From Bacteroidota bacterium (lineage in GTDB: Bacteria; Bacteroidota; Ignavibacteria; Kapaibacteriales; NICIL-2), in the NCBI GenBank assembly GCA_019695345.1, contig JAIBAE010000039.1:1-38630 (forward strand): a stretch of 38,630 bases of DNA, read 5' to 3'. The translations under genes and the position numbers were made by a program. Under the pieces are notes generated by a model that saw only the letters and a program-made list of their open reading frames with translations, did no database searches and was not told the origin of the DNA. Positions 1,938 through 35,814 of the stretch are shown piece by piece (position 1 is the stretch's first letter; every line of letters starts with the position of its first letter).

Positions 1938-2342
1938 ATGATGACGGATAATCCTGTGTTACTGTTTGATGGAGTGTGTAATCTGTGCAATAGTGTGGTT
2001 CAGTTTGTAATACGCCACGACCACAAAAAACAGATTCGATTTGCTTCGCTTCAGTCTGGAATTGGAATACAATTACAACAACAATACGGTCACAACGTAG
2101 GCAATTTGGATACTGTTGTGCTGATAATAAACAACACAATGTTAACCGAGAGTACTGCAATATTACGTATCCTTCGTTTACTTGGTTTCCCGTGGAGTTT
2201 GATGTATGGTTGTATGGTAATTCCAAAAGTATTGCGGGATATTGGGTATAGGTACATAGCTAAAAATAGATACGTGTGGTTTGGCAAACAAGAATCGTGT
2301 ATGATACCTACACCGGAACTTCGAAAATTATTTCTTGAGTAA
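1938..2342 (+). CDS. DCC-family thiol-disulfide oxidoreductase (DUF393)
   Basis: 134-residue protein of the DUF393/DCC family (PF04134), small thioredoxin-related proteins predicted to act in thiol-disulfide exchange. The signature LLFDGVCNLCN is at residues 8-18, with a CxxC pair. It is followed by an IRFASLQS strand and the ..STAILRILRLLG helix typical of the family. The length is normal. ATG at 1938 is followed directly by a second ATG at 1941, and no strong ribosome-binding site is visible. The natural substrate is unknown. Confidence 0.9.
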   Translation: MMTDNPVLLFDGVCNLCNSVVQFVIRHDHKKQIRFASLQSGIGIQLQQQYGHNVGNLDTVVLIINNTMLTESTAILRILRLLGFPWSLMYGCMVIPKVLRDIGYRYIAKNRYVWFGKQESCMIPTPELRKLFLE

Positions 2343-2370
2343 TTGTTTACAAACAACTTTTGGAGGTTTA

Positions 2371-19194: not shown

Positions 19195-19401
19195 GCTACG
19201 GTGTACACTGTGTTTTTTATTAACGCTCCGTAAGCACTTGTATTTTGGTTAGTTAGTGAGTACTCTAATGGCACTCTAATGGTACTCAATTGCCACCAAG
19301 TCAGCACACAGAAAATTCTTGATATATATCTCAAGAATGGAGCTACTCTATTCTTATTTAACTTCAGTTTTACACGCTTCAGGTACTTACCAAAGGTACC
19401 T

Positions 19402-20904: not shown

Positions 20905-20931
20905 ATTCGTTCCATAGCAAAGTAAATAAAT

Positions 20932-20988
20932 GAGAGTACTCTGTGCATTGAACGCCACACGCAGTACAACACAACTCAGAGCACTCTC
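20932..20988. other. Inverted repeat between the two RPWM-domain genes
   Basis: GAGAGTACTCTG (20932-20943) pairs with CAGAGCACTCTC (20977-20988) at 11 of 12 positions over a 33-nt loop. It fills the intergenic space and includes an AGAGTA core like the upstream regulatory boxes. It could act as an attenuator, an mRNA processing hairpin, or a palindromic operator. Confidence 0.55.
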
Positions 20989-20999
20989 TTAGGTTCATG

Positions 21000-22403
21000 T
21001 TAAGGCATATCTTCCGGTGCGCAATACGGTACTACGGCGTTCATCCAACCTATAATCTGAACTCCCGGTACGGTAATCTCACCGTTTGCAAAAGCAGACT
21101 TCCATGTTTCGCTGGAGTGGGATTGGCTATAACTACCACCAATGGAAAACGGACCAATACCAACTTGACCGCCTGCACTTAATGCCGACTGCATTTTATC
21201 CCAATCGGACTTTGCCCAAGTAGCTTTTATCTTTACACCTTTAACCACAACAAATCCTGTTGGCATAAGTGGCCACATGGTCTTCTGTTGTGTTTTAGTA
21301 CCATTGGAGATACCACCTTTTTTAGGCGAGAAATTCCCAAGGTTCCATGTTTTAGTATCAAGCAAATGGAAGCTCATCCACGGGCGGCGGATGCCAACAA
21401 ACTTGAAGCTGAACTCGATGCTGAGATTATTTGTTTCCGAGCTAAAATGTTGCGAGCTCCAACTGCCACCGGCTTTGGCACCAACACTCCATATACCCAA
21501 GCTGAATCCTGCCGATGCACCAAACGATTTGTAATCCGATGAAGCATTGGCAATACTGTTGCCTGCCGATACTTTAACGGTTGTCCAACCTGTGGTATCG
21601 CTACTGCTGTACCAGTTAGATGGTATTAAACTAACGCGTTCAATCTTGGGCGAGAGTCCGCCACCGGAATCATCCAACGTAACACCATACCCTTCAAAAA
21701 TCTCTTTTGCTTTGTTGAACGCTTTCTGCAAAGAATTTTGCGAGCTGGTAGCAAGTATGGCTAAGTTCTGTTCTACTTTATCCGCAAAGTTTGCACGCCA
21801 TTTATCCCACGCTTGTTTTACAGGAATCTGCATTGTAGGTGCAACAAGTGGCCAGGTGTTCTTTCCCTGTGGCGTTTCCTGTGCGGCTAAGTATGCTCCA
21901 ACGTATGCTAACCGTGCGTTTTGGTACGCCGACTGGTTATCTAAGTAATCTCTGTACACAGCGGATTCAATTGTTTTAGGTGTAACCGCACCGGTATCGG
22001 GGTCGGTTTGGTTTACAATACGGAACAAGTAATTCCATGCTGCATCAATTTGTGCATCTAATGCCGCGTCTTTTTTCTGAACAGGAATCGAAACGCTGTT
22101 TAGTATATCACCATATACTTGTGTTACTGTTTTACCACTATCCTCGTACAGCGAGTTAGCGTTTGGTATTACATCAACTAAACGTGCAGTGTTTACTGCT
22201 GCGTCCTGGCTTCCGGAAGTGTTGCCCGGGGTCCACGGGTTGCGGTAATCGTTAGGGTTTATTGCCATGCCGGGTTTCATTAAGGTCAGCATGGTTTTGG
22301 CAGTATTTGCCAATGGTTTGCCACCGGGTTCTGCTTTTGTTGCAGAATCGAAAATACGGTCGTATATGCCTTGCACTAAGGCATTCATTTGTTCTGCTGT
22401 CAT
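21000..22403 (-). CDS. Cluster protein with C-terminal RPWM/PGVQII domain (paralogue A)
   Basis: 467 residues. Residues 1-240 are mostly helical. Residues about 273-335 are a Ser/Gly-rich run of alternating strands (SFGASAGFSLGIWSVGAKAG then SSETNNLSIEFSF), the style of a beta-hairpin-forming or pore-type segment and also reminiscent of the DUF2589 proteins in this cluster. The C-terminal domain has RPWM (340-343), PLMPTGFVVVKG (378-389), GIGPF (415-419) and VPGVQIIGW (445-453), shared with the next gene. No signal peptide. Two TACTCT-type boxes lie in its leader. Function unknown; a membrane-acting role is a hypothesis only. Confidence 0.8.
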   Translation of the reverse strand: MTAEQMNALVQGIYDRIFDSATKAEPGGKPLANTAKTMLTLMKPGMAINPNDYRNPWTPGNTSGSQDAAVNTARLVDVIPNANSLYEDSGKTVTQVYGDILNSVSIPVQKKDAALDAQIDAAWNYLFRIVNQTDPDTGAVTPKTIESAVYRDYLDNQSAYQNARLAYVGAYLAAQETPQGKNTWPLVAPTMQIPVKQAWDKWRANFADKVEQNLAILATSSQNSLQKAFNKAKEIFEGYGVTLDDSGGGLSPKIERVSLIPSNWYSSSDTTGWTTVKVSAGNSIANASSDYKSFGASAGFSLGIWSVGAKAGGSWSSQHFSSETNNLSIEFSFKFVGIRRPWMSFHLLDTKTWNLGNFSPKKGGISNGTKTQQKTMWPLMPTGFVVVKGVKIKATWAKSDWDKMQSALSAGGQVGIGPFSIGGSYSQSHSSETWKSAFANGEITVPGVQIIGWMNAVVPYCAPEDMP

Positions 22404-22429
22404 TGTATTATTCCTTTTGGTATAATGCT

Positions 22430-22480
22430 TACTCTATTCAGTTTTCAGCACACCTGTCCTACTCTGTTTAGGGTTTTCGG
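22430..22480 (-). promoter_or_regulatory. Tandem GAAAAC...AGAGTA boxes upstream of paralogue A
   Basis: On the minus strand CCGAAAACCCTAAACAGAGT + A (22480-22460) and CTGAAAACTGAATAGAGTAA (22448-22429) are two copies of one element. The second lies 26 nt before the ATG and continues GCATTATA, matching the block before 33282. It may be a promoter core or an operator. Confidence 0.6.
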
Positions 22481-22684
22481 AAAACTCCCGTCAGGAATTC
22501 ATCTTTGCAAAGAATTGAAAACGTGATGTTCTCAGTTGTATGTTTGGTTCCCCTGTACCGTATCGTAACACAACTGTGTGGAGCTTGATATACTACGTGC
22601 TGTCTAAACAATTTTCTTTATGCCGACCGAGTGTGTACACCATGCATATTGTGCGTTACAAAACACGGTAAATACTGGAACATA

Positions 22685-22726
22685 GGCGGTACTCATTTTC
22701 TACGGTGGTGGTACTCATTTTCTACA
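22685..22726 (+). repeat. Two 22-bp GTACTCATTTTCTAC units
   Basis: Units at 22689 and 22711, preceded by CATAGGCG. They are the same sequence and phase as at 19132. The 22.5-23.3 kb stretch holds this, a second pair at 22914, a terminator-like hairpin and a hairpin repeat, but no convincing gene. Confidence 0.8.
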
Positions 22727-22807
22727 CTGTACTATTACAGATATATCGAACGTATTATCCAACTCAACTATAACAATTACAGTGCTCAACAACACGGTTG
22801 GGTACCG

Positions 22808-22852
22808 TATAACAAAACAAAACGCCCCCGTACCATGATTAGGAGGCGTTTA
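22808..22852 (-). terminator. Terminator-like hairpin, minus strand
   Basis: AAACGCCTCC pairs with GGGGGCGTTT (one mismatch) around an 11-nt loop, and on the minus strand TTGTTTTGTT follows. It lies 450 nt after the DUF4062 stop and shields paralogue A from read-through. Confidence 0.6.
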
Positions 22853-22910
22853 AAGGAGAAATGGAGATACTATGAGTATCACTGCAAGTAACAACAAAAC
22901 TTTTACATAG

Positions 22911-22945
22911 GTGGTACTCATTTTCTACGGTGGTGGTACTTTTTT
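22911..22945 (+). repeat. Two 22-bp GTACTCATTTTCTAC units (second truncated)
   Basis: Units start at 22914 and 22936; the second continues only as GTACTTTTTTTT. It is preceded by ACATAGGTG, close to the ACATAGGCG before the copy at 22685. Confidence 0.75.
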
Positions 22946-22962
22946 TTCACTAAAAATATCTG

Positions 22963-23026
22963 TTGCTATCGCATGGCGGCACCGAACCACACAAAAAATA
23001 AATCGTTGTTTTGCCGGAGAGAAACT
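22963..23026 (+). repeat. Dispersed hairpin repeat, copy 5
   Basis: Begins TTGCTATCGCATGGCGGCAC and ends TTTTGCCGGAGAGAAACT. The stem is CGGCA/TGCCG. The tail is identical to that of copy 6 at 36500. It starts 18 nt after a 22-bp-unit array, and copy 6 also lies near such an array. Confidence 0.65.
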
Positions 23027-23297
23027 ACATTTATTTATTGGTATAAGAAGTTATTACAATTTTTACAACCTATGTTAGAATTACTTAAAGATACTTTGAC
23101 ATTTGATTATTATCTACACATTTATTAAACAATTCAATGCTTAGTTGTTACATACGCAGCTACAACTATGCAATAATTGAAATCCTTAGTCGGATTTTAA
23201 ATACTACTTACCTTTAATGGAAATTTTTTATTCTAATAAATCATGCATTCCAATTCTAATATTGTTTTCTGTAAAATATACGCTTTTGGTTGAAGAG

Positions 23298-24416
23298 TTA
23301 TACAAGAAGTTCAATTTCATTTTGTATTCTTGCAATGAGTTGCTCCTTTTCTTCATCAGTCTTAATAAATGGAGCAACTTTATAGTTGTATATTGCATTT
23401 ATTCTATACCCTTCAACCCTTGAAAACTTAACAGGAATATCTTTAGCAAGTAATAACGCATTGAGCTTCTCGGTCATTTGCTCTGTTATTTCCATCATCC
23501 ATTTATTCATAGACTTTCTATTTTCTTTGTCAGGCATTTTTAATGTTTCTTTTAAAACTACTTCATAAATGGCTCTTGAAATCTGCAACTTTTGCTGGTC
23601 AGACACTTCGCCCTGTATTTCTTGAACATCCATCATGATATAAAGTTGATCGCAGAAAAAGTCAATAATCATTGCAAACTGTCTCTTGATCACACTTTCA
23701 TATTCTTCGTTTTCATTGCCTAATATTTTTTTACCTACACTATTCAACATTTCATTCATACGTAATGAGACATTATTCAATTCTGTAACGGTATCTAATA
23801 CCTTGTTAACTTCTTGTTGTTTTTGTAAGCTATCAAGATACAAATAGAATAGTCCTGCAAGCTGATTCTGAAGGTAATTTTCAATTTCTTCTACTCTGTC
23901 AAATGTTTTAATCGGCTTGGATTTTATTGCATCAACAAACCGAAATACATTAGAACTGTCAACATGTGCGAATTTAAACTTAACATTTTTGCTTGCTCCA
24001 CTACTTTTATAAGTTTCATTGTTATCAAAGAAATCTTGGTTTTCTTTATAAGTTTGATACTCAGAATAAACATTTTTGTCAATGAATATGAATACAGGAA
24101 TATTTCTTTTTACTGCTGTTTCAAATTCTTTTCGAGTTATTGAGACATATTCGCTTTCATATTTTTTCTGATCTTCTATAGGGCTAACACTGGTGGCTGT
24201 AGTCCCATACCTACCACCAACTATTAATACCATTAAGTGACAAAGTGTTACTTCGTTATATGCTGAATCGTCAATGGGTTTTCCATGTTCATAGGTTATT
24301 TTATCACTCTCAAACAAAACGGATTCAAATCCATAATTATCAATGAACTTCTCAATCCTTTCCCGAACATGTTTTAGATCGTAGTAAGTTGAGCTTACGA
24401 ATACTCTTGGTTTCAT
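23298..24416 (-). CDS. DUF4062-domain protein
   Basis: 372 residues. The N-terminal ~95 residues are a DUF4062 domain (PF13271): MKPRVFVSSTYYDLKHVRER, then a Rossmann-like alternation with a conserved acidic/His position and LMVLIVGGRYGT. DUF4062 is structurally related to TIR/deoxyribosyltransferase-like folds and often sits at the N-terminus of STAND-type signalling or defence proteins. Residues about 100-145 extend this fold and the C-terminal 200 residues are helical with no ATPase motif, so it is not a STAND protein. It is flanked by non-coding repeats on both sides and interrupts the surrounding cluster, so it may be inserted cargo. Confidence 0.85.
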   Translation of the reverse strand: MKPRVFVSSTYYDLKHVRERIEKFIDNYGFESVLFESDKITYEHGKPIDDSAYNEVTLCHLMVLIVGGRYGTTATSVSPIEDQKKYESEYVSITRKEFETAVKRNIPVFIFIDKNVYSEYQTYKENQDFFDNNETYKSSGASKNVKFKFAHVDSSNVFRFVDAIKSKPIKTFDRVEEIENYLQNQLAGLFYLYLDSLQKQQEVNKVLDTVTELNNVSLRMNEMLNSVGKKILGNENEEYESVIKRQFAMIIDFFCDQLYIMMDVQEIQGEVSDQQKLQISRAIYEVVLKETLKMPDKENRKSMNKWMMEITEQMTEKLNALLLAKDIPVKFSRVEGYRINAIYNYKVAPFIKTDEEKEQLIARIQNEIELLV

Positions 24417-24738
24417 TTTACATTCTATTTGTTTTGAATTTTTATTAAATATTACTCAGTTTAAAGTTATTTCAGTCCTGATATAGTAGCATCTTACTGA
24501 ATGCGAATCGCAAAGAGGAAGTGTTTCTGTACATCAGTTGTATGAGGCCTTTTTTCAGTTAAACACAAAGAAGTCTCAAAGAGACATATAATCACCGCAT
24601 TAATCATAGCCCAACAGACTGAAGAGGTTCCTGCAAATATTAACTGAGATTATGCTTTTGTGTTAAACACTATAATTCGAATCAAAAGTTTACAGCTTAA
24701 TCCATTCCACTTTAACTGCAATGTTTTTAACTACATAT

Positions 24739-24793
24739 TCTGCACCGCAGCACATAGCCCATAAAATGCAGGTAGTACGGCGCAGTATTTGCC
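24739..24793 (-). repeat. Dispersed hairpin repeat, copy 8
   Basis: The minus strand runs from AAATACTGCGCCGTACTACC through GCTATGTGCTGCGGTGCAGA. It matches copy 7 over about 75 bp, including sequence beyond the tail (AAACATTGC). It lies 120 nt after the 209-residue gene on the same strand. Confidence 0.6.
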
Positions 24794-24803
24794 CTAACAC
24801 AAT

Positions 24804-24874
24804 ACATAAAAACTATATTACTACAGCGCACTATACAGCGTATACAAAAGCTTAAGTAGTTGTGTAATAGCTAC
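24804..24874 (-). repeat. 70-bp downstream element, copy 1
   Basis: Shares a 25-base block with 36709-36733 (minus strand CGCTGTAGTAATATAGTTTT plus TATGT) and a second block ACAACTAC..TAAG at the same distance. It is placed 38 nt after the stop of the 209-residue gene, as its partner lies directly after the TIR-like gene. The rest of 24417-24912 has no convincing gene. Confidence 0.75.
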
Positions 24875-24912
24875 CGATGTTGGCGGTAGTGCTATTTTTC
24901 ATTAATTGATAG

Positions 24913-25542
24913 TTATTTCTTAATAGTCTCGTATTTTATTCCTTGGAAATTTTCAAATACAAACTTGTCCTCCTTACTCAGTAGATTTTCATCAAAGGCA
25001 ACTATCTTTCCATCTTTAAGAACTTTGTAGTCAACAGATTTAATTTCAGCATTTTCAGGAATAAACGAACTCATATAGCGACTATGTGCTTTGGTGCGGA
25101 ACTCTTGTCTATGTTGAAGAAAATATGCTAAGTCCAAATGACCTACCATAAACACTATGCTAAAATCTTTTCTGGCAGCAATATCCCACTTCCACATTGG
25201 ATGAAATTTTTTTCTTATTGCTTGGTCAGATTCCCACAATGCTGTTTTTAAGTTCTCAAAATCTTGCTCAGTTCTTATGTCAAACTCACAGATTGTTAAA
25301 TAATTAATGAACTTTTCACCGAATACTAGACTTGAACCAAGAGTGAAAATTTCATAGTCACGATATTTCTCTTTGAAAAAGTCAAGTTCATCTAAGAACC
25401 ATGCCTCAAGTGGACGTCTAATACTCTTGCCATATACATATCGCATAGTGTCAGGTTTATAATCAAACCCTTCTGTTGTGCAGGTAAGTTTATGATAACT
25501 GTCTTCTGCAACTGTAATTACTTTTTTGTTGGAATTTTCCAT
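24913..25542 (-). CDS. Hypothetical protein, 209 residues
   Basis: No family recognised. The middle (LDELDFFKEKYRDYEIFTLG to YLTICEFDI) and a MWKWDIAARKDFSIVF segment suggest a soluble alpha/beta enzyme-like or adaptor domain; there is no signal peptide or membrane helix. It is flanked on both sides by members of two dispersed repeat families and lies beside the DUF4062 gene, so I infer accessory cargo, perhaps defence-related. No ribosome-binding site is visible before the ATG at 25542. Confidence 0.65.
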   Translation of the reverse strand: MENSNKKVITVAEDSYHKLTCTTEGFDYKPDTMRYVYGKSIRRPLEAWFLDELDFFKEKYRDYEIFTLGSSLVFGEKFINYLTICEFDIRTEQDFENLKTALWESDQAIRKKFHPMWKWDIAARKDFSIVFMVGHLDLAYFLQHRQEFRTKAHSRYMSSFIPENAEIKSVDYKVLKDGKIVAFDENLLSKEDKFVFENFQGIKYETIKK

Positions 25543-25803
25543 TGTATATTAGTTTATGTGGTAAATAATTTATTGAGCTATTGTGTAACCAAAGCATTGC
25601 CTCTAACTTAGAGGTATAGGAAGTTTTTCTTTCAATAACTACCTACAATTTCCCGTATATGGGTAATAGGAGGAAGTTCCGTTAGCAATTCATTGTTCAC
25701 TATATAGTGTTTATGTATTTGTAAATGCTACAACCACACTTCAGTTATTAGGCAATACCCTTAACTCTATTTACAATGGGCAATGTTTTGTTATAATTGT
25801 ATG

Positions 25804-25864
25804 TTCTGTCCCGCAACGCATAGACCTAACAATGCAGGCGGTACGGTACGGTCTGCGGTAGCAA
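25804..25864 (-). repeat. Dispersed hairpin repeat, copy 7
   Basis: The minus strand begins TTTGCTACCGCAGACCGTAC and ends TGCGTTGCGGGACAGAAC. The stem is CCGCA/TGCGG. It lies 78 nt after the stop of the metalloprotease gene in the same orientation. Confidence 0.65.
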
Positions 25865-25910
25865 ATACATTTACAAGTACTTGGTACAAATAAAATACAT
25901 GTTGGTAAAA

Positions 25911-25987
25911 AAATCACTACTCATTTTCTACAGTGGTGGTACTCATTTAGTACACGGTTGGCAGTGTACCGGGTGTGGAAAACTTTG
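25911..25987 (+). repeat. 22-bp unit array with extended block, overlapping a stop codon
   Basis: AAATCACTACTCATTTTCTA + CAGTGGT is identical to 36325-36351, and TGTGGAAAACT recurs further on at both sites. The second unit starts at 25939; its TCA provides the TGA stop of the metalloprotease gene. Confidence 0.8.
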
Positions 25988-26767
25988 TTTAACGCAGGGG
26001 TAAGTTTCATTTAACTTTCTTTTGTAACCATTGAAATGCGTAGTATTCTGCATCACTTTTTGAGGTATTGAACAACAACGGGAGGGTTGCACCACAACCT
26101 GATACAAATCCTGAACTATGTTCATACCCAACCAATACCCGCCTCGGTTATATAAGGGGGAGCCATCTGCATAATAGAACAATTCGTTAGTAAGCGCATG
26201 ATGGAAGTTATCTAAACAAAACCTACACATATCTTTCTTGGAAACATGGCACTGTTGTAGCCAGTTATTATACTGTGCATTGGTGTACACATCAGCCCAA
26301 AGGATTTGTTGTGTGGGTAGCGTTGTTATAATGCTACTACAAAAGGTAGCAACACCTTCGCAAAGGAGATTTCTGCTTAAAAGGGATTGCTCAGTTTGAT
26401 TGTGGAAATAATATTCGGGTTGAATTGTGTAGTGGTAGGCATGTAGCAGTTCATGTAAAACAAACACATCTGCATACATTGTTGTTGCGTAATGTTCTAC
26501 GCAATAAAATGGATAGGCACTGGAGTTATAAAAGAATGCGTGTCCGTTAGTACCAAAATCGCCAATAGTGGTAATACATTGATTAGAAGCAAGTGGAAGG
26601 TTAATCGCACTAAATACTGAGAGATACTTCTGAAACGTTTGTTGAACTATTGTAAAGTTTTTACTCCAGTCCTTTGTTTGATTATCTATAAGTACCTCTT
26701 TGTTGTTCAAGTAATACTCACGATAATGTTCTTTAAACGAAAGCAGTATATTTTCCCAGTTATCCAT
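25943..26767 (-). CDS. HELLH zinc metalloprotease (gluzincin-like)
   Basis: 274 residues. HELLH at 105-109 within VFVLHELLHAYHY, with Glu137 (LLCEGVATF) 28 residues later as probable third zinc ligand, fits the gluzincin pattern. There is no signal peptide, so it should act in the cytoplasm or on co-released proteins. The C-terminal ~30 residues are Cys/His/Pro-rich (RCCSIPQ...HPVHCQPCTK) and the last codons lie in a repeat, so the true C-terminus may have been changed by insertion of that repeat. A terminator separates it from the MANIT genes upstream. Substrate unknown; other proteins of the cluster are candidates. Confidence 0.8.
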   Translation of the reverse strand: MDNWENILLSFKEHYREYYLNNKEVLIDNQTKDWSKNFTIVQQTFQKYLSVFSAINLPLASNQCITTIGDFGTNGHAFFYNSSAYPFYCVEHYATTMYADVFVLHELLHAYHYTIQPEYYFHNQTEQSLLSRNLLCEGVATFCSSIITTLPTQQILWADVYTNAQYNNWLQQCHVSKKDMCRFCLDNFHHALTNELFYYADGSPLYNRGGYWLGMNIVQDLYQVVVQPSRCCSIPQKVMQNTTHFNGYKRKLNETYPCVKQSFPHPVHCQPCTK

Positions 26768-26810
26768 ACAATTGAAAAATGTAGAAGAACATCACGTTGA
26801 ATAATATACA

Positions 26811-26849
26811 AAAAAAATCATGGAGGTGCTCCAATGCGGCTCACCTCCA
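26811..26849 (-). terminator. Terminator of the MANIT gene pair
   Basis: TGGAGGTG pairs perfectly with CACCTCCA over a 13-nt loop, and on the minus strand TGATTTTTTTTG follows. It lies 67 nt after the stop at 26916 and before the metalloprotease start. Confidence 0.85.
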
Positions 26850-26915
26850 CTACAGAATCGGGGAATTCAAAAGTAACAGTTATACTAACTGCTTGAACTT
26901 ACTACTGCGAGTACA

Positions 26916-28019
26916 TTAAGTGCCACTCTTTTCTATCATATAGGAACCGACTGAAAGTACAGTTGTACCATCGGATAATGTGATGTTAATTGTCTCGGCA
27001 ACAACATCATCACCTGTATATGTAATAGTAAATTTAATACCCTCATCATTCCAGGTGCCTGGAGTTATAGTAACTCCATTTGTTGTTGGTGATACTGTTA
27101 AATTAGATTTACCGGCAACATTGGTTCCAAGAAATTCCCCAAAGATTACATAACTAGTACCGCTTTTCAAGTTTCCACCACCGGGTATCGGTATTGGATC
27201 TCCTTGTGTTGGAATTTCATACACTCCGTCAACAGTAGGTGTTCTTTCTACTAAACTTTCCAGTTCCATTATTAGCTTTAGATATGCGGGATCGTTCATG
27301 ATTGAACTTAAATCACCAGCATACTGTTTAATAAATGCAGGTGTTACAAACATATAGGTGTCCTTATGAACCGTCATTGTTGTACTTGAAGACTGTTCTT
27401 TAAAACAAGGACCAAGAGTAACGGTTTGAGCTACTGTTTGGGCATCGGCTGTAACCACTATTGCGCTTACCACTGGCATTCCAAGCAAGTACTCGCATAC
27501 AAATATGATATTGGCAACCTGACTTGTTAACGATGAAGATTGACCAGAGATATTTACGCCTTCCTTGCCCATTGTATTTATCATAGCAGATGCAAATCCT
27601 AACTCACCTGCACCGGTAGCCAACCCCAGAATTGCCTCAATCAACTCTTGGCTAAAGTTTGCTCCCCAACTGGAAGTTGTATACGATACGTCTTCTTCAT
27701 TGATATGCACAAAATATCCTGAACCATCTATTACAGCTTCAAGTGCATCATAATTATAGAGACTGTAATTTGGTAACTGTCCTGTTGTTTTATCCGGGGT
27801 ACCATTTGGATTGGTACTTTGAGAAATTGCTTTCGTCATTGCTGCAAAAAAAACAGATACTTCAGCAAAGACATCTCGTACTGATTGCTGTATGGTATCG
27901 CTCTTTTCATCTGTGGAAACTAACATAATGTTTCCCGTCTCGTTAAAGACATAACGCTTCACAGCCTGGATGTTAAATGGATCGGGCTGAGGTAGCGAGA
28001 GTTGGGTAATATTTGCCAT
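26916..28019 (-). CDS. Cluster protein MANIT-2, with C-terminal Ig-like domain
   Basis: 367 residues starting MANITQLSLP. About residues 110-250 form a conserved-looking globular part (SWGANFSQELIEAILGLATG ... LGMPVVSAIVVT ... TYMFVTPAFIKQYAGDL). The last ~100 residues, after a Gly/Pro hinge (IPIPGGGNLKSG), alternate as in an Ig/IPT-like beta sandwich. No signal peptide or sorting domain. It follows the other MANIT-starting protein by 83 nt on the same transcript, ending at a terminator. I do not recognise the family; the identical first five residues of the two proteins may be a shared targeting signal or coincidence. Confidence 0.75.
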   Translation of the reverse strand: MANITQLSLPQPDPFNIQAVKRYVFNETGNIMLVSTDEKSDTIQQSVRDVFAEVSVFFAAMTKAISQSTNPNGTPDKTTGQLPNYSLYNYDALEAVIDGSGYFVHINEEDVSYTTSSWGANFSQELIEAILGLATGAGELGFASAMINTMGKEGVNISGQSSSLTSQVANIIFVCEYLLGMPVVSAIVVTADAQTVAQTVTLGPCFKEQSSSTTMTVHKDTYMFVTPAFIKQYAGDLSSIMNDPAYLKLIMELESLVERTPTVDGVYEIPTQGDPIPIPGGGNLKSGTSYVIFGEFLGTNVAGKSNLTVSPTTNGVTITPGTWNDEGIKFTITYTGDDVVAETINITLSDGTTVLSVGSYMIEKSGT

Positions 28020-28102
28020 GTAATAATTAAGTAAAATGTTTTAAAAATGATATTGATGGACTATACCATTCAACATCTGTGTTATTATCAAACTGACCGG
28101 AA

Positions 28103-29056
28103 TTATAGATTGTAATTTTTTAATACAACACCTACCGGATTATAGCGCATTGACATATAGATGTTATCGTTGTTGTTGTGAGGCACACATATTGGGAATA
28201 TATACACGGTGCTACCATTAGGCATATACTTGGCTGTAGTTCCCGGTATTACATGCCCGCCAACAAATGATGAACTACACGAGAACCCGGACTTACCATT
28301 TGCATAATTATACGATGAACATAATGTTGGATAGCCACCACTATTACATTTATCTGCCCATAGTTGAATCCACGAACTATATCCATATGGCTTGGGGTCG
28401 TTTGTTGAGCCAATCACGTTTGCAAACGAATAGTTTAACGACCATGTAATAGTACCACCGTAGGTAGAGAATACAATTGATTGAACTTCCGTGATGTCTG
28501 TTAACGAAGGTTGAAGCGTATCGGGCTTATCGGGAGCAAACATTGCTTTGTAATCCAGATAGTTTTCGGGCGTAACCACTGGTGCAGGTCCGGTTTGTAT
28601 AACACCCTGAACACCGGCATCAAGAAGTTGTTGAACAAGTGCATCGATAGCATACCGAACAGACTTCTGAATTACAAGTTTTACTTCGGGCGTGGACTCG
28701 ATAAATGATGTTAAAAGATTGGGAGTACCTTGCGTAGTAGCAAAAGTGTTTAGCACACGTGCATCGGTAATGTGTGGATGTTGCTCTAAGCTTGTTAGAA
28801 TTGATACCTGCTTATCACTACCATCATCTTTCCCTGCAATTGTAACAAACTGAGTTTCGGGGTCGTAGCTATAGGGAATAGATAATTGCGCAAATACTTT
28901 ATAGTGATAATATTCACCAACTTCTACAGGTTCGCTAATAAACGTGTGCTCACCTTCGGTAAGCTCTATATCAACCGTAACAAATTGTTCGTTGGTTGAT
29001 AACAAACCTTTAGTAAGAGAATTGAAAATTGGTAGTTTGAATGTAATGTTTGCCAT
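28103..29056 (-). CDS. Cluster protein MANIT-1, with C-terminal Cys/His motif domain
   Basis: 317 residues starting MANITFKLPI. Beta-rich N-terminal ~90 residues, helical centre (about 110-150), and a C-terminal domain from about 195 with SSWIQLWADKCN, three further Cys, GGHVIPG (His268) and YIFPICVPHN (Cys290, His293). The spaced His and Cys residues could bind a metal or form a catalytic site, but I cannot name the family. No signal peptide. Its leader has an ATAGAGTA element 23 nt before the ATG. First gene of a two-gene unit. Confidence 0.75.
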   Translation of the reverse strand: MANITFKLPIFNSLTKGLLSTNEQFVTVDIELTEGEHTFISEPVEVGEYYHYKVFAQLSIPYSYDPETQFVTIAGKDDGSDKQVSILTSLEQHPHITDARVLNTFATTQGTPNLLTSFIESTPEVKLVIQKSVRYAIDALVQQLLDAGVQGVIQTGPAPVVTPENYLDYKAMFAPDKPDTLQPSLTDITEVQSIVFSTYGGTITWSLNYSFANVIGSTNDPKPYGYSSWIQLWADKCNSGGYPTLCSSYNYANGKSGFSCSSSFVGGHVIPGTTAKYMPNGSTVYIFPICVPHNNNDNIYMSMRYNPVGVVLKNYNL

Positions 29057-29079
29057 TGATTTCTTTCTTTGATAAGTAA

Positions 29080-29100
29080 TACTCTATGTTATTCAAGTTG
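29080..29100 (-). promoter_or_regulatory. ATAGAGTA element before MANIT-1
   Basis: The minus strand reads CAACTTGAATAACATAGAGT + A, 23 nt before the start codon. The position matches the elements before 33282 and 22403; the upstream GAAAAC half is degenerate here (CTTGAATAAC). Confidence 0.5.
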
Positions 29101-29163
29101 TTTGGGTGCAAACTCAATCTTTGACTTTTAGCAATAAGAACCTAATTGCAAAAAAGTGCTCTA

Positions 29164-30009
29164 TCAGAATTTCAGATGCTCGGCATATACCATACTGCCG
29201 GTGTATTCTTCTTGGTTTGGAAACTTCTGATAGGTATAACAGCCATCGCCGGACTTTTTCCAATCATCATTAATTCCTTCAGAACCACCTGTTAATATCC
29301 CAACCACATTTCCTGTTTTACGACTAAGAACCGGACTACCCGAATTACCGGGAAAGAGTGTGATATACCCTTTGAATTCCGATAAGTCTGCTTCTGTATC
29401 TGCTACTATTCCTTCGCTGAATTTCATTGTTTGCCCCAATGGATACCCCGCCATCATAATTGCGTCGTTGGTTCTTAAGGAACGCTGTTCCGTAATGGGA
29501 GCAAGGTTATAAAGGAGCTTACCGTTTTTAACGGATTGTTTGGTTGTGATTTTACAAATGTCTTTATCGGGATGATAGGTAATAGCCGTAACATCATACA
29601 TAACAAAAGTAAATGGAGAAGTAGGCGAGCTTTTTCTAAAAAATCCCGACATCAGTTTAAGCTTTGAAGCATCATTGGGCTTGGCATCTACTTCGGCTAA
29701 TACATCCTGAACTACGTGTGCGGCAGTCATAAATGTTTTCGATTCAATCGCAAATGCTGTCCCGGTCATCCATACCGCTGTTTCGCCTGCAATTGCATCG
29801 CATAACTTACCATTACCGCCGTACGGATACATTGGTTGGTTATTATAATAATACCCACTTGTTTTGGTTTTAAGTGTTGCTTTAGGTACATCCAAAAATG
29901 GCTGACCTACAGCACACACAATACATGTTGATGTTGCTTTGTCTCTAATGTCAACAGGCGTTTGTTTTGAAAAATACTCTTGCGGATAAAAGTCATTAAA
30001 AATTGCCAT
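29164..30009 (-). CDS. Trypsin-like serine protease without signal peptide
   Basis: 281 residues, chymotrypsin/trypsin fold, closest in style to V8/Glu-specific-type peptidases (Trypsin_2). Catalytic triad: His98 in FMTAAHVV, Asp150 in HPDKDICKI, Ser223 in FPGNSGSPVL; GTAF before the His strand and VVGILTGG near the end are also typical. The N-terminal ~75 residues precede the fold and may be a propeptide or partner-binding region, but no export signal is seen. It is the last gene of a unit that begins with the DUF2589 genes. Processing of a cluster protein is a reasonable inference; the specificity is unknown. Confidence 0.88.
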   Translation of the reverse strand: MAIFNDFYPQEYFSKQTPVDIRDKATSTCIVCAVGQPFLDVPKATLKTKTSGYYYNNQPMYPYGGNGKLCDAIAGETAVWMTGTAFAIESKTFMTAAHVVQDVLAEVDAKPNDASKLKLMSGFFRKSSPTSPFTFVMYDVTAITYHPDKDICKITTKQSVKNGKLLYNLAPITEQRSLRTNDAIMMAGYPLGQTMKFSEGIVADTEADLSEFKGYITLFPGNSGSPVLSRKTGNVVGILTGGSEGINDDWKKSGDGCYTYQKFPNQEEYTGSMVYAEHLKF

Positions 30010-30055
30010 AGTTGTTTTGTGGTTATGTTTTTAAAAAAATTCTGTACAGGTTTTG

Positions 30056-30451
30056 TTATGCGTTAATAAGGATTGTTATTTCCGAGCCGTAGCTAAACTT
30101 ATCGGAATGTTTACTACTTGTACCATCCGGCTCCACGATTATCTCTATGGGTATATAACCCACAGCCATATACTTTGATAAATCACTCGTTCCAATTAAT
30201 CTTTTTTCTTCTGAATAAAAGGAAACCAGTACATCGGTATCACTACCCGGTCTATCTTTTATACTATAATATTCACTTTGATTACGTAACCGGGCAAAGT
30301 AGTTTTCAAAATCTTTTGTTGTATAATAAATGTTGTATAGTGCGGTTGATTCTATTCCATCAGAATAAACATGATGAACGGAATCAGGGCTAACATCATA
30401 AAAGTCATTTGTTAGAGTATGAAACGAGCAGGGTATATTAGTTTGAAACAT
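30056..30451 (-). CDS. Small beta-rich cluster protein, tandem paralogue 2
   Basis: 131 residues. It aligns with the next gene upstream (30496-30879): both start M-x-x-x-NIPCSF-x-T, share NIYY, then SFY.E...IGTS and KYM.VGYIPIE against ERYVTIGHYPID. Strands dominate, with no signal peptide or membrane segment. A tandem duplication with strong divergence indicates two different partners or roles. 46-nt gap to the protease gene on the same strand suggests co-transcription. Function unknown. Confidence 0.75.
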   Translation of the reverse strand: MFQTNIPCSFHTLTNDFYDVSPDSVHHVYSDGIESTALYNIYYTTKDFENYFARLRNQSEYYSIKDRPGSDTDVLVSFYSEEKRLIGTSDLSKYMAVGYIPIEIIVEPDGTSSKHSDKFSYGSEITILINA

Positions 30452-30495
30452 AGTAATAGTGTTTGGTTGTTTTTAATAAAAAGATTACATCACAG

Positions 30496-30879
30496 CTACA
30501 GAATTTCAATAATAGTATGCCCATGATGAAAACGGTCTCTCCCTTTTACTCCAATACCTTCCTCACTTAACAACATATCAATTGGATAGTGCCCTATTGT
30601 TACATATCGTTCAACTACGCATGTTCCAATCCGGACTCCGTCTTCATTAAAAAATGTGATGGATGCCTGAACTTCACTGATATGATCAACTCTATATGAA
30701 GTACATTCATGATGAAGCTGAACACAGGTATTTTTAGTCTCTAGATTGGCATAGTATATATTCTTGGGATTTTCATGATGAGTTCCATCGAATTTGTAAC
30801 GAATAACCAATCTTTCTTGAATTACATATCTACTTCCATGTTCAGTTCTGAAGGAACAAGGGATATTTACATCATACAT
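30496..30879 (-). CDS. Small beta-rich cluster protein, tandem paralogue 1
   Basis: 127 residues, His-rich compared with its paralogue (HHENP, LHHEC, HHGHT). The N-terminal VNIPCSFRT and the central IGTCVVERYVTIGHYPID mark it as a duplicate of the next gene. The start at 30879 has a GGAGAACAAA leader. It lies 45 nt after the DUF2589-like gene. Function unknown. Confidence 0.75.
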   Translation of the reverse strand: MYDVNIPCSFRTEHGSRYVIQERLVIRYKFDGTHHENPKNIYYANLETKNTCVQLHHECTSYRVDHISEVQASITFFNEDGVRIGTCVVERYVTIGHYPIDMLLSEEGIGVKGRDRFHHGHTIIEIL

Positions 30880-30924
30880 TTTGTTCTCCTGAATGTGTAT
30901 TTGTAATGAGTACTGTTATTTCTT

Positions 30925-31563
30925 TTAATTAGGAATCTGGCTTCGCAATGCTCTTTCATATCCTTCAATCATTTTCTTTAATCCTTCTGAGCTTTCCTGA
31001 GGAGTTAATGTAATCTCGATAGATGCTGTATGTGCACTCGGTACCGTTGTTCCTGTTGATTCCGTATATGAAGGTGTTGATGCGGGTGTAGGAAATGCTA
31101 CTTTCAAATCGTTACCATCAATTGAGAGTTCCAGATTGGTTTTGAATTTTACTTCGGCAACCTTTGTCATATTCACCGGTATAAGAGTTATTAAGGGTAC
31201 CTCAACATTGCGCATGATAGTGCCGGAACTTGTTTGGTCGGGGTATTGTAGTGTTACCGTTTTTGCACGCAAGCTATCAAGTGACTTCGATGCACCTTCT
31301 TGCTTACCTTCATCTTGCAATGCACTCTTGGCATTAAGGAATGCTTCTCTGGTATGTTCAATTACCTCTTTGGTTGGTCTGGTATGGAACATAAAATTTT
31401 CTATGGATTCCAGTGCATCATCTAACGACTGACGAATTTCATCGGTGTTAGAAGAGGATTCAAAATATGTATCTAACAAGCGTAGATTTTCTTGCATGAG
31501 TGCATCATTAGCCGATAGAACCGCACCATGAATGACGTTGATAAGTTGTTCAAATGCTATCAT
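30925..31563 (-). CDS. DUF2589-related protein
   Basis: 212 residues. The core VEVPLITLIPVNMTKVAEVK then FKTNLELSI is the middle strand pair of DUF2589 (PF11655), and the end (SIEITLTPQESSEGLKKMIE) matches its C-terminal strand plus helix. The N-terminal ~100 residues are a helical region (TRPTKEVIEHTREAFLNAKS) replacing the short GLPxxxLIGAPL helix of the other two. It starts 2 nt after the zinc-ribbon gene stop, so translation is coupled. DUF2589 has no established function. Confidence 0.8.
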   Translation of the reverse strand: MIAFEQLINVIHGAVLSANDALMQENLRLLDTYFESSSNTDEIRQSLDDALESIENFMFHTRPTKEVIEHTREAFLNAKSALQDEGKQEGASKSLDSLRAKTVTLQYPDQTSSGTIMRNVEVPLITLIPVNMTKVAEVKFKTNLELSIDGNDLKVAFPTPASTPSYTESTGTTVPSAHTASIEITLTPQESSEGLKKMIEGYERALRSQIPN

Positions 31564-31565
31564 AG

Positions 31566-31820
31566 TTATAATGTACTATTTGTGATTTGGTTTTGTTTAT
31601 TACCTTTACGTTGCTTTTTGTTTTTTGAGCTAAACTTACTTTTGCTTAACTCTTTAAATTCTTCAAACACCGTAGTGGCTTGCTCTACACTCTCCTGGGC
31701 TATCCCTATAACTGCAAAACACGATGGACATGAAAACTTATGTCCGCGTATTAATGCTTGTGCATCAAACGGAATCTTTGTTTGGCAAATTGGGCATGGT
31801 ATTTTTTGTTCGTTAATCAT
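31566..31820 (-). CDS. Zinc-ribbon small protein
   Basis: 84 residues. CPICQTKIPFDAQ...HKFSCPSC gives two CPxC knuckles (Cys9/12 and Cys30/33) of a single zinc ribbon at the N-terminus, followed by a helix and a very basic Lys/Ser/Asn-rich tail. Such ribbons mediate protein or nucleic-acid contacts. It is embedded between two DUF2589-type genes (23-nt and 2-nt gaps), so it probably works with them. Confidence 0.8.
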   Translation of the reverse strand: MINEQKIPCPICQTKIPFDAQALIRGHKFSCPSCFAVIGIAQESVEQATTVFEEFKELSKSKFSSKNKKQRKGNKQNQITNSTL

Positions 31821-31843
31821 AATATGATACTTTCAATAGAATG

Positions 31844-32494
31844 TTAATCTTTTTTGGAGGATAAAGGTATTTCATCATCATTGGGAACAAGGTCAACAAC
31901 ATTGATAGCATTGGTGTATATATCAATTATCTCGAGTAGACCTTTTGTTAAAGGCAAAGTGCCTGCCTCAACACTAATTTGAAACGAGCTACTTATATCA
32001 CGCTCGTACTTTTTACTTACAGAAACATCTTTAGGTGATGAAGTACCTTTACCAATACGACCTAACAATTCAACATTTTTGCTTTTAGTTGTACTTGATT
32101 TTTTGGATGTGACATCGTCGGTTTCCTCGGATATAGAATACTGCGATGTAAACTCAATATCAAAATTGATGTCGGCATTTTCTATTCCAAGACTATTTAT
32201 GGGAATAATAGTAAGAATAGGAAGTGAGAAATATGCTGTTACTTGTTTCACCACCGGCTCATCATCCAGATTGCTACCGGGCTCTACAATGCTACGAGTA
32301 ACAACCATCGTAATCATTATAGGTTCATAAACATTGTCTCTACGGTAAAAGCAATTGTTTAGCAGTGATTGCATTTGCTCTTTAGCCATTGCCGATTGTG
32401 CTTTTGCAATGGCAAGCAATGGTTTACCAATTATATCATAAATCGGTAATCCGGTAAAATGATAGTTACTACGTTGTGCTTTATCTTTTGCCAT
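31844..32494 (-). CDS. DUF2589 protein b
   Basis: 216 residues. N-terminal FTGLPIYDIIGKPLLAIAKA helix, the strand ITAYFSLPILTIIPINSLGI (here VTAYFSLPIL...) with ENADINFDIEF, a Ser/Lys-rich middle, and a C-terminal ISSSFQISVEAGTLPLTKGL motif all fit DUF2589 (PF11655). Paralogue of the next gene upstream, with about equal length. No signal peptide. The 137-nt gap upstream could hold an additional promoter. Family function is unknown; the alternating Ser-rich strands suggest a beta-layer protein that self-assembles or contacts membranes, which is inference. Confidence 0.85.
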   Translation of the reverse strand: MAKDKAQRSNYHFTGLPIYDIIGKPLLAIAKAQSAMAKEQMQSLLNNCFYRRDNVYEPIMITMVVTRSIVEPGSNLDDEPVVKQVTAYFSLPILTIIPINSLGIENADINFDIEFTSQYSISEETDDVTSKKSSTTKSKNVELLGRIGKGTSSPKDVSVSKKYERDISSSFQISVEAGTLPLTKGLLEIIDIYTNAINVVDLVPNDDEIPLSSKKD

Positions 32495-32631
32495 GGTAGT
32501 TTTTAATATTAATAGTTAACAAAGTAAATAACCGGAATAGTGTACGTAACAATAGTTGAGGGAACCTGATACCTCACTATCCCGATTATTACTACTACGT
32601 ACGTTTAGGAATGCACTACTTTTCTATTGGT

Positions 32632-33282
32632 TTATTTTTTCTCAGCAGGCATTTCGTATGGTTGTATTGCCAATGTAAAGGCTGTTATGATTGTATCAAC
32701 GCCCTTAGGTAAAGGTAACTGACCTGCATGAACATGTACGGTGTACTTGGCAGAATTACTTTTTTCGTAATGGCTGTTGAAACTTGATGAGTCTTTGCTA
32801 TCGTAGCTTGCATTACCTTTTATGGAGGCACTTATCGGACCCCAACCGGCTTTTACTTCCCATTCGGTAGAAACGGCAACTTCAGTTTCTTGCTTTTTAC
32901 TGGTTTCTTCTCCGTAGCTTGATTTTACTTCCATTTCAAAGTTGATATCAACTTCGTCTACCGCTAAAGAATTTAATGGTATGATAGTAAGTATTGGTAA
33001 ATCAAACTTTGTTTCAAATGTGCTCATAGTTGGTGGGTCTTCCGGTTTTGCTCCGGGAACTAACACACCTCTTGTTAACGACATCTTAATCATTATTGGT
33101 GTGTAATTCTTATTGGTTGCATCGTACGAAAAACATGTATTCAACATGAATTGCGTTTGTGTGAGTGCCATTGCTGCGTTAGCTTTTGCCGCAGCATTTA
33201 ATGGCGCTCCTATTAAATCATCCATTGGCAAACCTGTAAAGGCTTGCGCCATGGACACGAGTTCCGGGCTATCACTTGCCAT
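32632..33282 (-). CDS. DUF2589 protein a
   Basis: 216 residues: FTGLPMDDLIGAPLNAAAKA (about 15-34) is the best match to the DUF2589 N-terminal motif. FDLPILTIIPLNSLAVDEVD and INFEMEVKSS form the central strands, followed by a Ser/Lys-rich beta region (AGWGPISASIKGNASYDSK) and the terminal KYTVHVHAGQLPLPKGVDTI. It heads the unit DUF2589a - DUF2589b - zinc ribbon - DUF2589-like - two small paralogues - trypsin-like protease, preceded by a clear ATAGAGTA block. No signal peptide. Confidence 0.88.
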   Translation of the reverse strand: MASDSPELVSMAQAFTGLPMDDLIGAPLNAAAKANAAMALTQTQFMLNTCFSYDATNKNYTPIMIKMSLTRGVLVPGAKPEDPPTMSTFETKFDLPILTIIPLNSLAVDEVDINFEMEVKSSYGEETSKKQETEVAVSTEWEVKAGWGPISASIKGNASYDSKDSSSFNSHYEKSNSAKYTVHVHAGQLPLPKGVDTIITAFTLAIQPYEMPAEKK

Positions 33283-33301
33283 AATTATTCTGTATTGATT
33301 A

Positions 33302-33325
33302 ATGCCTACTCTATAAGGTTTTCGG
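33302..33325 (-). promoter_or_regulatory. GAAAAC...ATAGAGTA box before DUF2589a
   Basis: The minus strand reads CCGAAAACCTTATAGAGTAG + GCATT, 24 nt before the ATG. It aligns without gaps to the box before 22403 (CTGAAAACTGAATAGAGTAA + GCATT). Conservation over about 25 nt at the same distance marks a shared promoter or operator. Confidence 0.65.
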
Positions 33326-33867
33326 CATCCCCTTCTATACCATCGGTTGGATATTGCCTGTTACCTATCATTACATTTTCTAATGAGGCGAAGCATTATG
33401 AATATGATTGATAGATGTACTACAGATATTACCGCATGAGTTTACGTTCCCTACTCTATTGTTGGCTTTTCGGTACCGCCATCGCCTATACTTTATCACA
33501 ATACTTTCTGCAGAAAAGTACTCCGGTAACGTATTCGTTATTGATTCTTTAACTCTATACTTTTTAGTGATGGCATATATCCGTTGCAGACATTCAATCA
33601 CTTTATTGATAATTCCCCTTAGTGCTGCTTAGGTAGGAATAGCGTTATTATTGATGCTAATTTCGTAGGCGAAACTACGCCATTCAAGAGGCGGCGTCAA
33701 CCCATATAAAACACTCTATTTTCCGGTATGTAGTATATCATTGTTTAGGTAGGTACCCCATCAAAAACACTCTCATTGTAGCTAATTGGGGTGACTAAAA
33801 ATCTATCTGTATGTGAATACCGTAATGCAACTCAATGACACAATCAAGTTGAGTATGACAGGATACA
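33326..33867. other. Non-coding region with additional TACTCTATT boxes
   Basis: No convincing gene. Two more box-like sites are present in plus-strand orientation: TACTCTATTGTTGGCTTTTC + GG at 33452-33473 and CACTCTATTTTCCGG at 33711-33725; a weaker ACTCTATAC lies at 33551. The density of such sites before the DUF2589 operon and beside the regulator gene suggests a control region. Confidence 0.5.
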
Positions 33868-35814
33868 CTACGATGCTATCGAATCAGTATGCAGCAACAC
33901 ATGTATTAAGTTGGCATCCCTCTCCAATCCTAATTTCTTCCGGAGTTTTACACGATGATTTTCTACGGCTTTTACACTGATATGTAACAGATTGGCAATT
34001 TCTTTAGAGCGTAGATTCATTCGTAACAACGAGCATACCTTTAGCTCACTTGCAGAAAGGGTGGGATATTTCCTACTCATTGTCTGTATAAAGTCATTAT
34101 GCATTCTGTTAAACTGCATTTGGAATAATTGCCACTCTTCTTTCACTACTAACGATTCGGAGCGAACGTTACGCAATAACTCTAAAATGATTTTATGTTT
34201 GTGATCAGGTTCAGCCTGTATAGCTCTTTCCAAGCCATGCTCTATTGTATCAAGGTATTCTTGCTTTTCAACTAAATGTAAAGCAAAATTGTTTAGTTCT
34301 TGGGTCTTAGCTTTTAGCTCTTGGGTAGCAGATTCTAATCCTGACTTTGCCTCTTCTGCCAACCGCTTATGTTTTTCAACTTCGTAAAGCAGTATAAGAT
34401 TTTTCTCATTTCTATCGGAGAACTCGTTATACAGTTCACGGTTTATCTTTTCATACTCTATAAAATGTAAGAGTGCTTGTTCAAACAAGTGTTGTTTTTG
34501 GTAACACTCACTTAACGACTTATGGATAGAAGCAGTTTCATTCCTGTATTGGTACTTTACCGCTAATGCTAATGCAATGGATAGTTGTTCAACACTTTTG
34601 CCATAACTTGTTTTCTCTAAATACAACAAACCAAGTTCGTAATAGACTTGTACTTCTTGCATCCTTGCTTGTAGTTTCTTTATAGTAGGAAGTATTGCTT
34701 TAAACAGAGTTGTAGCTTTACTATACTGTTGGCTTGTTCTATAAAGTACGGCAAGATTAAATTGTGCGGTTATCATGCCGTATATGTCGTTCACTCCGGA
34801 AAAAAAGGAAAGCGATGTTTGCATTAACTGGATTGCTTCGGTATGTAAACCCATTAGCGACTTTATATCTGCCACATTAATTACAATATATCCCAGTGTA
34901 CTCGAACCTTTAGAACTTTGAAGTAATTGCATTCCTTTTTCAAAGTACTCAAGTGCTTTTGGTAAATTCTGTTTCTGTTTAAACAGCATCCCAAGTTCAT
35001 TACAACAATAGGCAATCCCATGAGTTTCATTCAGTCTCTCTTTTATGTCCAAGGCATGAAGCAGATGTTCAATAGCCGAGTTAAAATCCGATAAGTTTCT
35101 ATAAGCAACTCCAACATTATAGTACGCATCTGCAAGTACGGTTTCATCTTTTATACGTACTCTGTGATACCTGCCAAATGCATAGTTCATCCATCCACAC
35201 TCCAAAGCATTCTCCATATCAAGTTCTTTGTGATACTGAACCTTTGTTTTTATGGCATCGCTACCAAATATTACTGCATCAGCCCATTTGCCTTCGTGCA
35301 TGTAACAACTACAAATGTTCAGTAGTATATCACCACGCTCTTTATCATCTTTATACAGGGAAATATGCGATAATGCTCTGTAAAAATGTTCACGGGCTGT
35401 ATCAAACTCTCCTTTAAGTATGTTTATCCTACCAAATTGGAATTCAATTTTAACACAAGCAGGAGTATCATCACTATCTAATGCTATACGTAATGCATCG
35501 GTTGCATACTTCATTGCAATTTCAAGTTCACCAATGTGCACCTGTAGTATACAGTTAGACAACAACATATAACAGATGTGTTGCACATTGCCAAAGGTCT
35601 GTGCATTGCGCAAAGATTTCTCTGCCACCTCTAGTGCATCTTTATATAATCCTTGCCGGGTTAGTAATCGTACTTGTAAATATTCTTTATCAAGTTGAAT
35701 CTCGGGGTCGGTTGTTATACCAATTCCGGCGGAAAGTTCAATAGCTTTTGAAACATCAAAAAACGACAATGTATAGGTTTCTTGTAGTGTAGAATACTCC
35801 TGCGTAGAAATCAT
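33868..35814 (-). CDS. TPR-repeat transcriptional regulator with C-terminal LuxR HTH
   Basis: 648 residues. About 60-450 are a solenoid of TPR repeats (for example ADAYYNVGVAYRNLSDFNSA and IAYCCNELGMLFKQKQNLPK), then a coiled coil (about 475-540), and residues 586-648 are a LuxR/GerE helix-turn-helix (LSASELKVCSLLRMNLRSKE, IANLLHISVKAVENHRVKLR). No receiver domain or membrane segment, so it probably senses a cytosolic protein or peptide through the TPRs. This architecture is common in Bacteroidota. It is coupled to the 136-residue gene upstream (33-nt gap) and lies next to the DUF2589 operon, making it the likely local regulator. Confidence 0.9.
   Translation of the reverse strand: MISTQEYSTLQETYTLSFFDVSKAIELSAGIGITTDPEIQLDKEYLQVRLLTRQGLYKDALEVAEKSLRNAQTFGNVQHICYMLLSNCILQVHIGELEIAMKYATDALRIALDSDDTPACVKIEFQFGRINILKGEFDTAREHFYRALSHISLYKDDKERGDILLNICSCYMHEGKWADAVIFGSDAIKTKVQYHKELDMENALECGWMNYAFGRYHRVRIKDETVLADAYYNVGVAYRNLSDFNSAIEHLLHALDIKERLNETHGIAYCCNELGMLFKQKQNLPKALEYFEKGMQLLQSSKGSSTLGYIVINVADIKSLMGLHTEAIQLMQTSLSFFSGVNDIYGMITAQFNLAVLYRTSQQYSKATTLFKAILPTIKKLQARMQEVQVYYELGLLYLEKTSYGKSVEQLSIALALAVKYQYRNETASIHKSLSECYQKQHLFEQALLHFIEYEKINRELYNEFSDRNEKNLILLYEVEKHKRLAEEAKSGLESATQELKAKTQELNNFALHLVEKQEYLDTIEHGLERAIQAEPDHKHKIILELLRNVRSESLVVKEEWQLFQMQFNRMHNDFIQTMSRKYPTLSASELKVCSLLRMNLRSKEIANLLHISVKAVENHRVKLRKKLGLERDANLIHVLLHTDSIAS

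Follow-up and report, generated by a model that had tools for sequence, protein, structure and literature searches.

What is the short sequence that recurs, at a nearly constant distance, in front of genes on one contig of a Bacteroidota bacterium (NICIL-2; assembly GCA_019695345.1)? The stretch analysed here, referred to as the window, comprises contig C45 in full (JAIBAE010000039.1; 38,630 nucleotides) of a 4.56-Mb genome. A sequence-only reading had described GAAAAC followed by ATAGAGTA as a leader shared by three transcription units, and had proposed that it acts either as the −10-like box of a dedicated sigma factor or as an operator for a neighbouring TPR-LuxR protein. The repeated leader is part of a known RNA family, DUF805b (Rfam RF02914, clan CL00115), and not a promoter box.

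The Rfam scan of the window returned DUF805b at 33335-33303 and 33482-33448 on the minus strand, both above the gathering score of the family (35.6 bits), while a third match at 22491-22456 reached 30.8 bits and remains under it. A second covariance model, R1, was built from 61 sequences of other loci, none of them from the window, but including one copy each from contigs C7 and C92 of the same genome. With R1 four copies are found in the window, at 33336-33303 (45.9 bits), 22459-22426 (32.1 bits), 33483-33448 (28.9 bits) and 22489-22460 (20.6 bits), and the next match scores 9.2 bits. Genome-wide, true copies score at least 28.9 bits with R1 and all other matches at most 15.3 bits, the 20.6-bit copy of the window being absent from the genome-wide matches. 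The remaining copies are located at C7:6206-6173 and C92:11376-11343. ATAGAGTA itself has 194 copies in the genome; the full element has six, four of which lie on this contig, in one cluster and as two pairs. Like the family, the window copies share the sequence, a hairpin P1, the loop GCCGAAAA, a 3′ AGAGUAGGC and a placement 5′ of genes; the genes that follow encode DUF2589 and unknown families, however, and not the DUF805 of the family name.

The element is about 35 nt long, which is longer than the sequence-only reading described. Across 256 instances, gathered from Rfam matches in the same class and by scanning GTDB genomes (with a pattern) and viral contigs, it has the architecture of an H-type pseudoknot, in which a helix P1 of four base pairs is combined with a helix P2 formed by GCC of the loop and a 3′ GGC that follows AGAGUA. 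GAAAA and AGAGUA are the invariant joining loops. The shared GAAAAC and ATAGAGTA noted before are real, but represent the loop and the tail of an RNA rather than a DNA box. The RF02914 model as printed contains the 4-bp hairpin alone, whereas here the second, pseudoknotted helix is supported as well. In the core alignment, upstream positions pair with the bases after GAAAA in four pairs, far above shuffles and in the correct register only. Counted over 61 distinct sequences, 91.3% of the cells are paired (69.7% in shuffles) and 92 cells are changed on both sides (26 in shuffles), while the covariation score of 0.568 compares with 0.165 in shuffles, is reached by none of 500 shuffles and drops to at most 0.105 when the pairing is slid. 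For P1, 86.5% of the cells are paired, with both-side changes at all four pairs; for P2, 97.8% are paired as GC, CG, UA, GU or AU, with both-side changes at two of the three pairs. The pairing of the loop GCC with GGC was also checked in 63 sequences chosen by the model that, as printed, lacks it. Here the outer P2 pair is standard in 57 of the 63 (at most 51 in shuffles) and the inner pair in 61 (at most 59 in shuffles), comprising GC, UA, CG and GU types. Two other interpretations of the repeat were rejected. A recombination site does not agree with adjacent copies in one locus (L162, and the window) having different, compensated P1 stems, and a Shine-Dalgarno (SD)-like role of GGAGG in P1 does not agree with P1 covarying away from this sequence (CAGGG, CCCGG) and lying about 50 nt from the AUG.

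The window copies fit this architecture with four different P1 stems. Copy 1 (33303..33336, minus strand; RF02914 43.8 bits, E 2.2e-9; R1 E 4e-15) precedes a DUF2589 gene and forms P1 from AAGG (33334-33331) and CCUU (33318-33315), and P2 from GCC (33326-33324) and GGC (33306-33304), which can be extended to AUGCC/GGCAU. Both the GAAAA and the AGAGUA loop are present, and 21 nt separate P2 from the AUG. Copy 2 (33448..33483, minus strand; RF02914 41.2 bits) lies 111 nt 5′ of copy 1 and pairs UGGC with GCCA in P1, but its P2 is weak (CC/GG plus an A-G mismatch). Directly downstream of copy 2 stands AUG CGG UAA and no long open reading frame; indeed, the 0.6-kb gap between the TPR-LuxR and DUF2589 genes (33337-33868) contains copy 2, followed by nothing but this two-codon frame, which may be what is left of a small gene that was lost. 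Copy 3 (22426..22459, minus strand; R1 E 6e-10) is located 5′ of a gene for a 467-aa protein, with CAG/CUG in P1, a compensated GCU/AGC in P2 and a gap of 23 nt between P2 and the AUG; RF02914 did not match it even at E values up to 5. Copy 4 (22456..22491 by RF02914, minus strand) adjoins copy 3 and has GGG/CCC in P1 and a compensated UCC/GGA in P2.

Not every occurrence of the short pattern belongs to an element. ATAGAGTA is found six times in the window, always on the minus strand (19344, 22430, 29080, 33307, 33452 and 34454), where about 1.3 occurrences are expected from shuffles and about 1.6 from the genome-wide rate, the background being taken from pattern counts and 1.08 Mb of stretches. 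The genome-wide count of ATAGAGTA compares with 137 for a reversed control pattern, while GAAAACnnnATAGAGTA has just two copies in the genome, at 22430 and 33307. Membership of the element is confined to the sites 22430, 33307 and 33452, together with 22460, which has the C-variant ACAGAGTA. Its spacings of 26, 23 and 24 nt before the start codons at 22403, 29056 and 33282 are correct, and a shared element at constant distance does exist before 22403 and 33282, but not before 29056. Here the ATAGAGTA site (29080..29087, minus strand) has no GAAAA, P1 or P2; all three are likewise missing at 33711, and neither site scores with RF02914 or R1, nor does 29080 produce a covariance match even with filters off. 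When the three true copies are removed, ATAGAGTA remains at 19344, 29080 and 34454, which is the background level, so that the copy ahead of 29056 is probably due to chance and the three transcription units become two. Of the extra copies listed, 22460 and 33452 were confirmed and 33711 was not, while the tandem arrangement, in which 22489-22460 abuts 22459-22426 back to back, had gone unreported.

Relative to the genes, the element is placed by the start codon. The distance from its end to the ATG has a median of 23 nt and falls between 15 and 29 nt in 193 of the 237 instances with a gene. The sequence in between is A-rich and depleted of G, with A at −3, −6, −12 and −13, and resembles the SD-less, Kozak-like region of Bacteroidota, as the same initiation signature is seen in Flavobacterium johnsoniae, where −20 to +20 is a region of low structure (PMC6847099). 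The element is therefore situated immediately ahead of the region where SD-less initiation takes place, as an added module on a small set of genes only. On the upstream side no such regularity is seen. A fixed Bacteroidetes −7 box was searched for upstream of the element and none was found at a constant position, and TAnnTTTG boxes (53, compared with 22 for the reversed control and 44 for the reverse complement) are spread over 20-200 nt, so that promoters, where present, have no constant place relative to the element. Furthermore, of the 201 copies that could be assessed, 17 overlap the end of an upstream gene on the same strand or follow it within 30 nt, some of them abutting its stop codon. 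Since the spacing to the AUG is fixed, while the distances to upstream boxes and genes vary, the element goes with the start codon rather than with a promoter. The idea that it marks the 5′ end of the mRNA, taken from a few loci, among them L087 with TATATTTG just upstream, failed in the full set.

The element occurs across the whole of the Bacteroidota, with 1-25 copies in each genome that bears it, and 57 viral contigs (L215-L271) have it too. The viral-contig copies precede phage genes, and several copies are present in some of these contigs (L221, L230, L237). The 225 downstream proteins form 162 clusters and include DUF2589, TRL-like lipoproteins, DUF6520, LRR proteins, proteins sorted by the T9SS, class I lanthipeptide and pinensin precursors, phage HTH proteins and crAss-like proteins; one downstream gene, outside the window, encodes a DUF805 protein. 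By a simple rule applied to the GTDB loci, 49% of the downstream genes have signal-peptide-like starts, compared with 25% of their neighbours. In L161 and L147 the element stands before peptide precursors with a GG leader of the class I lanthipeptide type, and nitrile-hydratase-leader-like peptides were seen by eye downstream in L314 and L323. Arrays of peptide precursors often have one copy of the element per gene.

The proposed link to LuxR proteins is supported as a gene neighbourhood, but not as an operator. In the window, the TPR-LuxR gene (33868..35814, minus strand; Pfam GerE E 3.7e-7, TPR_12) stops 385 nt short of copy 2. Of the 14 loci of family f19, which belongs to the same class, 8 have a same-strand GerE gene that ends 68-330 nt upstream of the element, and in two further loci the gene lies 1.5-2 kb upstream; the density of GerE genes in the f19 genomes predicts adjacency by chance in about 0.13% of loci. 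These GerE proteins (L312-L321) are about 110-200 aa long, carry the GerE domain at the C-terminus and are encoded directly upstream of the DUF805b-bearing genes. By contrast, 118 loci of other Bacteroidota show no excess of GerE, with just one or two same-strand upstream GerE genes, and the C7 and C92 copies of the genome studied here have no GerE/LuxR neighbour. A general LuxR association across Bacteroidota was therefore dropped, since outside family f19 and the window it does not hold. In this clade LuxR genes and the RNA accompany each other, yet as a general rule the RNA does not serve as a LuxR operator.

We propose that DUF805b is an H-type pseudoknot in the mRNA 5′ leader that probably serves as a cis-regulatory RNA at the level of translation. 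Beyond the family, the pseudoknot and the position, which are observed, we infer that control is exerted after transcription, most likely on translation initiation. The pseudoknot, whose end lies some 23 nt ahead of the AUG and precedes the unstructured, A-rich and SD-less initiation region, would gate access of the 30S subunit (or survival of the mRNA). A small molecule or a factor would stabilize or release the weak pseudoknot, and this partner would be general to Bacteroidota because hosts and their phages share the element. Two operons of the DUF2589 cluster would be under the control of the element in the window, so that the idea of a regulon moves from DNA to RNA, while transcription of these operons may separately be governed by the neighbouring TPR-LuxR protein. 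Several points weigh against this proposal. Stabilization or processing of the mRNA would leave identical traces in the sequence, the P2 statistics derive in part from sequences picked for their similarity to the consensus, and both helices are short (4 and 3 bp), so that the fold may need a partner. Moreover, the downstream genes have no common pathway, and for this reason neither a ligand nor the sense of regulation (on or off) can be named. A wider version is possible, which we put forward tentatively: a translational module of the whole phylum, used for peptide precursors, secreted proteins and phage genes, could operate via a single conserved factor, either associated with the ribosome or binding RNA, where the SD-less region begins on its upstream side, and in one clade would form a unit of two parts together with the small GerE protein whose gene directly precedes it.

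The main rival to control of translation is a device for mRNA stability or processing, in which the 5′ structure protects the transcript from an RNase or guides it. Conserved structure in leaders and between cistrons would suit such a role, as would the great diversity of the genes, which is expected of a general device; yet stabilization does not need the tight spacing to the AUG, and the invariant loop bases imply specific recognition. We regard this role as unlikely. A classical metabolite riboswitch appears less probable still. The preQ1-I riboswitch is an H-type pseudoknot of about 34 nt with short helices and A-rich loops in the mRNA leader, and the element resembles it in size, topology class and leader placement, as well as having invariant A-rich loops and occasional tandem copies. 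However, the two do not match in sequence (Rfam reports DUF805b only), the 162 unrelated downstream clusters include phage genes and share no pathway, and P2 of the element, about 23 nt before the AUG, neither overlaps a ribosome-binding sequence nor occludes an SD.

The two DNA-level interpretations fare worse. If the element were a DNA operator bound by the TPR-LuxR protein or by related GerE proteins, the adjacency in f19 and the window would be explained, but this adjacency is confined to the clade and fits a LuxR protein acting on the promoter of the same gene. The element itself shows the covariation of a pseudoknot and keeps its distance to the AUG, making an operator very improbable. 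Least credible is the −10-like box of a dedicated sigma factor. The constant spacing to the starts and the enrichment over background had spoken for it, but the spacing is kept to the AUG, copies abut upstream stop codons, and the covariation includes P1 upstream of the box and P2 flanking it. In addition, the scattered TAnnTTTG boxes amount to about twice the reversed control and are little above the reverse complement, with no fixed promoter box.

The RNA family itself is already known from Rfam, to which the window adds members before DUF2589 and unknown genes. The pseudoknot, the SD-less placement and the clade-specific GerE neighbourhood appear to be additions, although the original description may already draw the pseudoknot. 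DUF805b was reportedly described by Weinberg in 2017; full-text literature searches did not find a paper on the RNA, and to our knowledge it has no assigned function. RF02913, which was guessed to be a sister family DUF805, is in fact pemK. If control of translation holds true, DUF805b would represent a common means of regulation in a phylum without Shine-Dalgarno pairing. The pseudoknot model, the placement before the AUG, the intercistronic copies and the types of target (peptide precursors, lipoproteins, DUF2589 and phage genes) make its function directly testable by reporter fusions.

The cluster behind the TPR-LuxR gene extends over 19477-33282, all on the minus strand. Its first gene after copy 1 (32632..33282, minus strand) encodes a DUF2589 protein of 216 aa (Pfam PF11655, E 2.6e-29), relatives of which in L118 (Kordia) and L200 likewise carry the motif. 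A further DUF2589 protein is encoded at 30925-31563, another was recognized by eye at 31844-32494, and a trypsin-like protease is encoded at 29164-30009. The 467-aa protein after copies 3 and 4 (21000..22403, minus strand) and several other proteins of the cluster have no Pfam match; a homologue of the 467-aa protein in genome G140 (L296) is also found downstream of a DUF805b element. Elsewhere in the window, the protein encoded at 2335-3702 ends, by eye, in a T9SS-type sorting tail, which points to Bacteroidota or a close relative. On contig C7 (L009, 4155-10507), a strong copy of the element precedes an N-acetylmuramidase gene, and by eye the run also contains a glycerophosphodiester phosphodiesterase-like gene and one for a fusion of papain-like protease and hydrolase; it is perhaps a second cluster of the same kind as that of the window.

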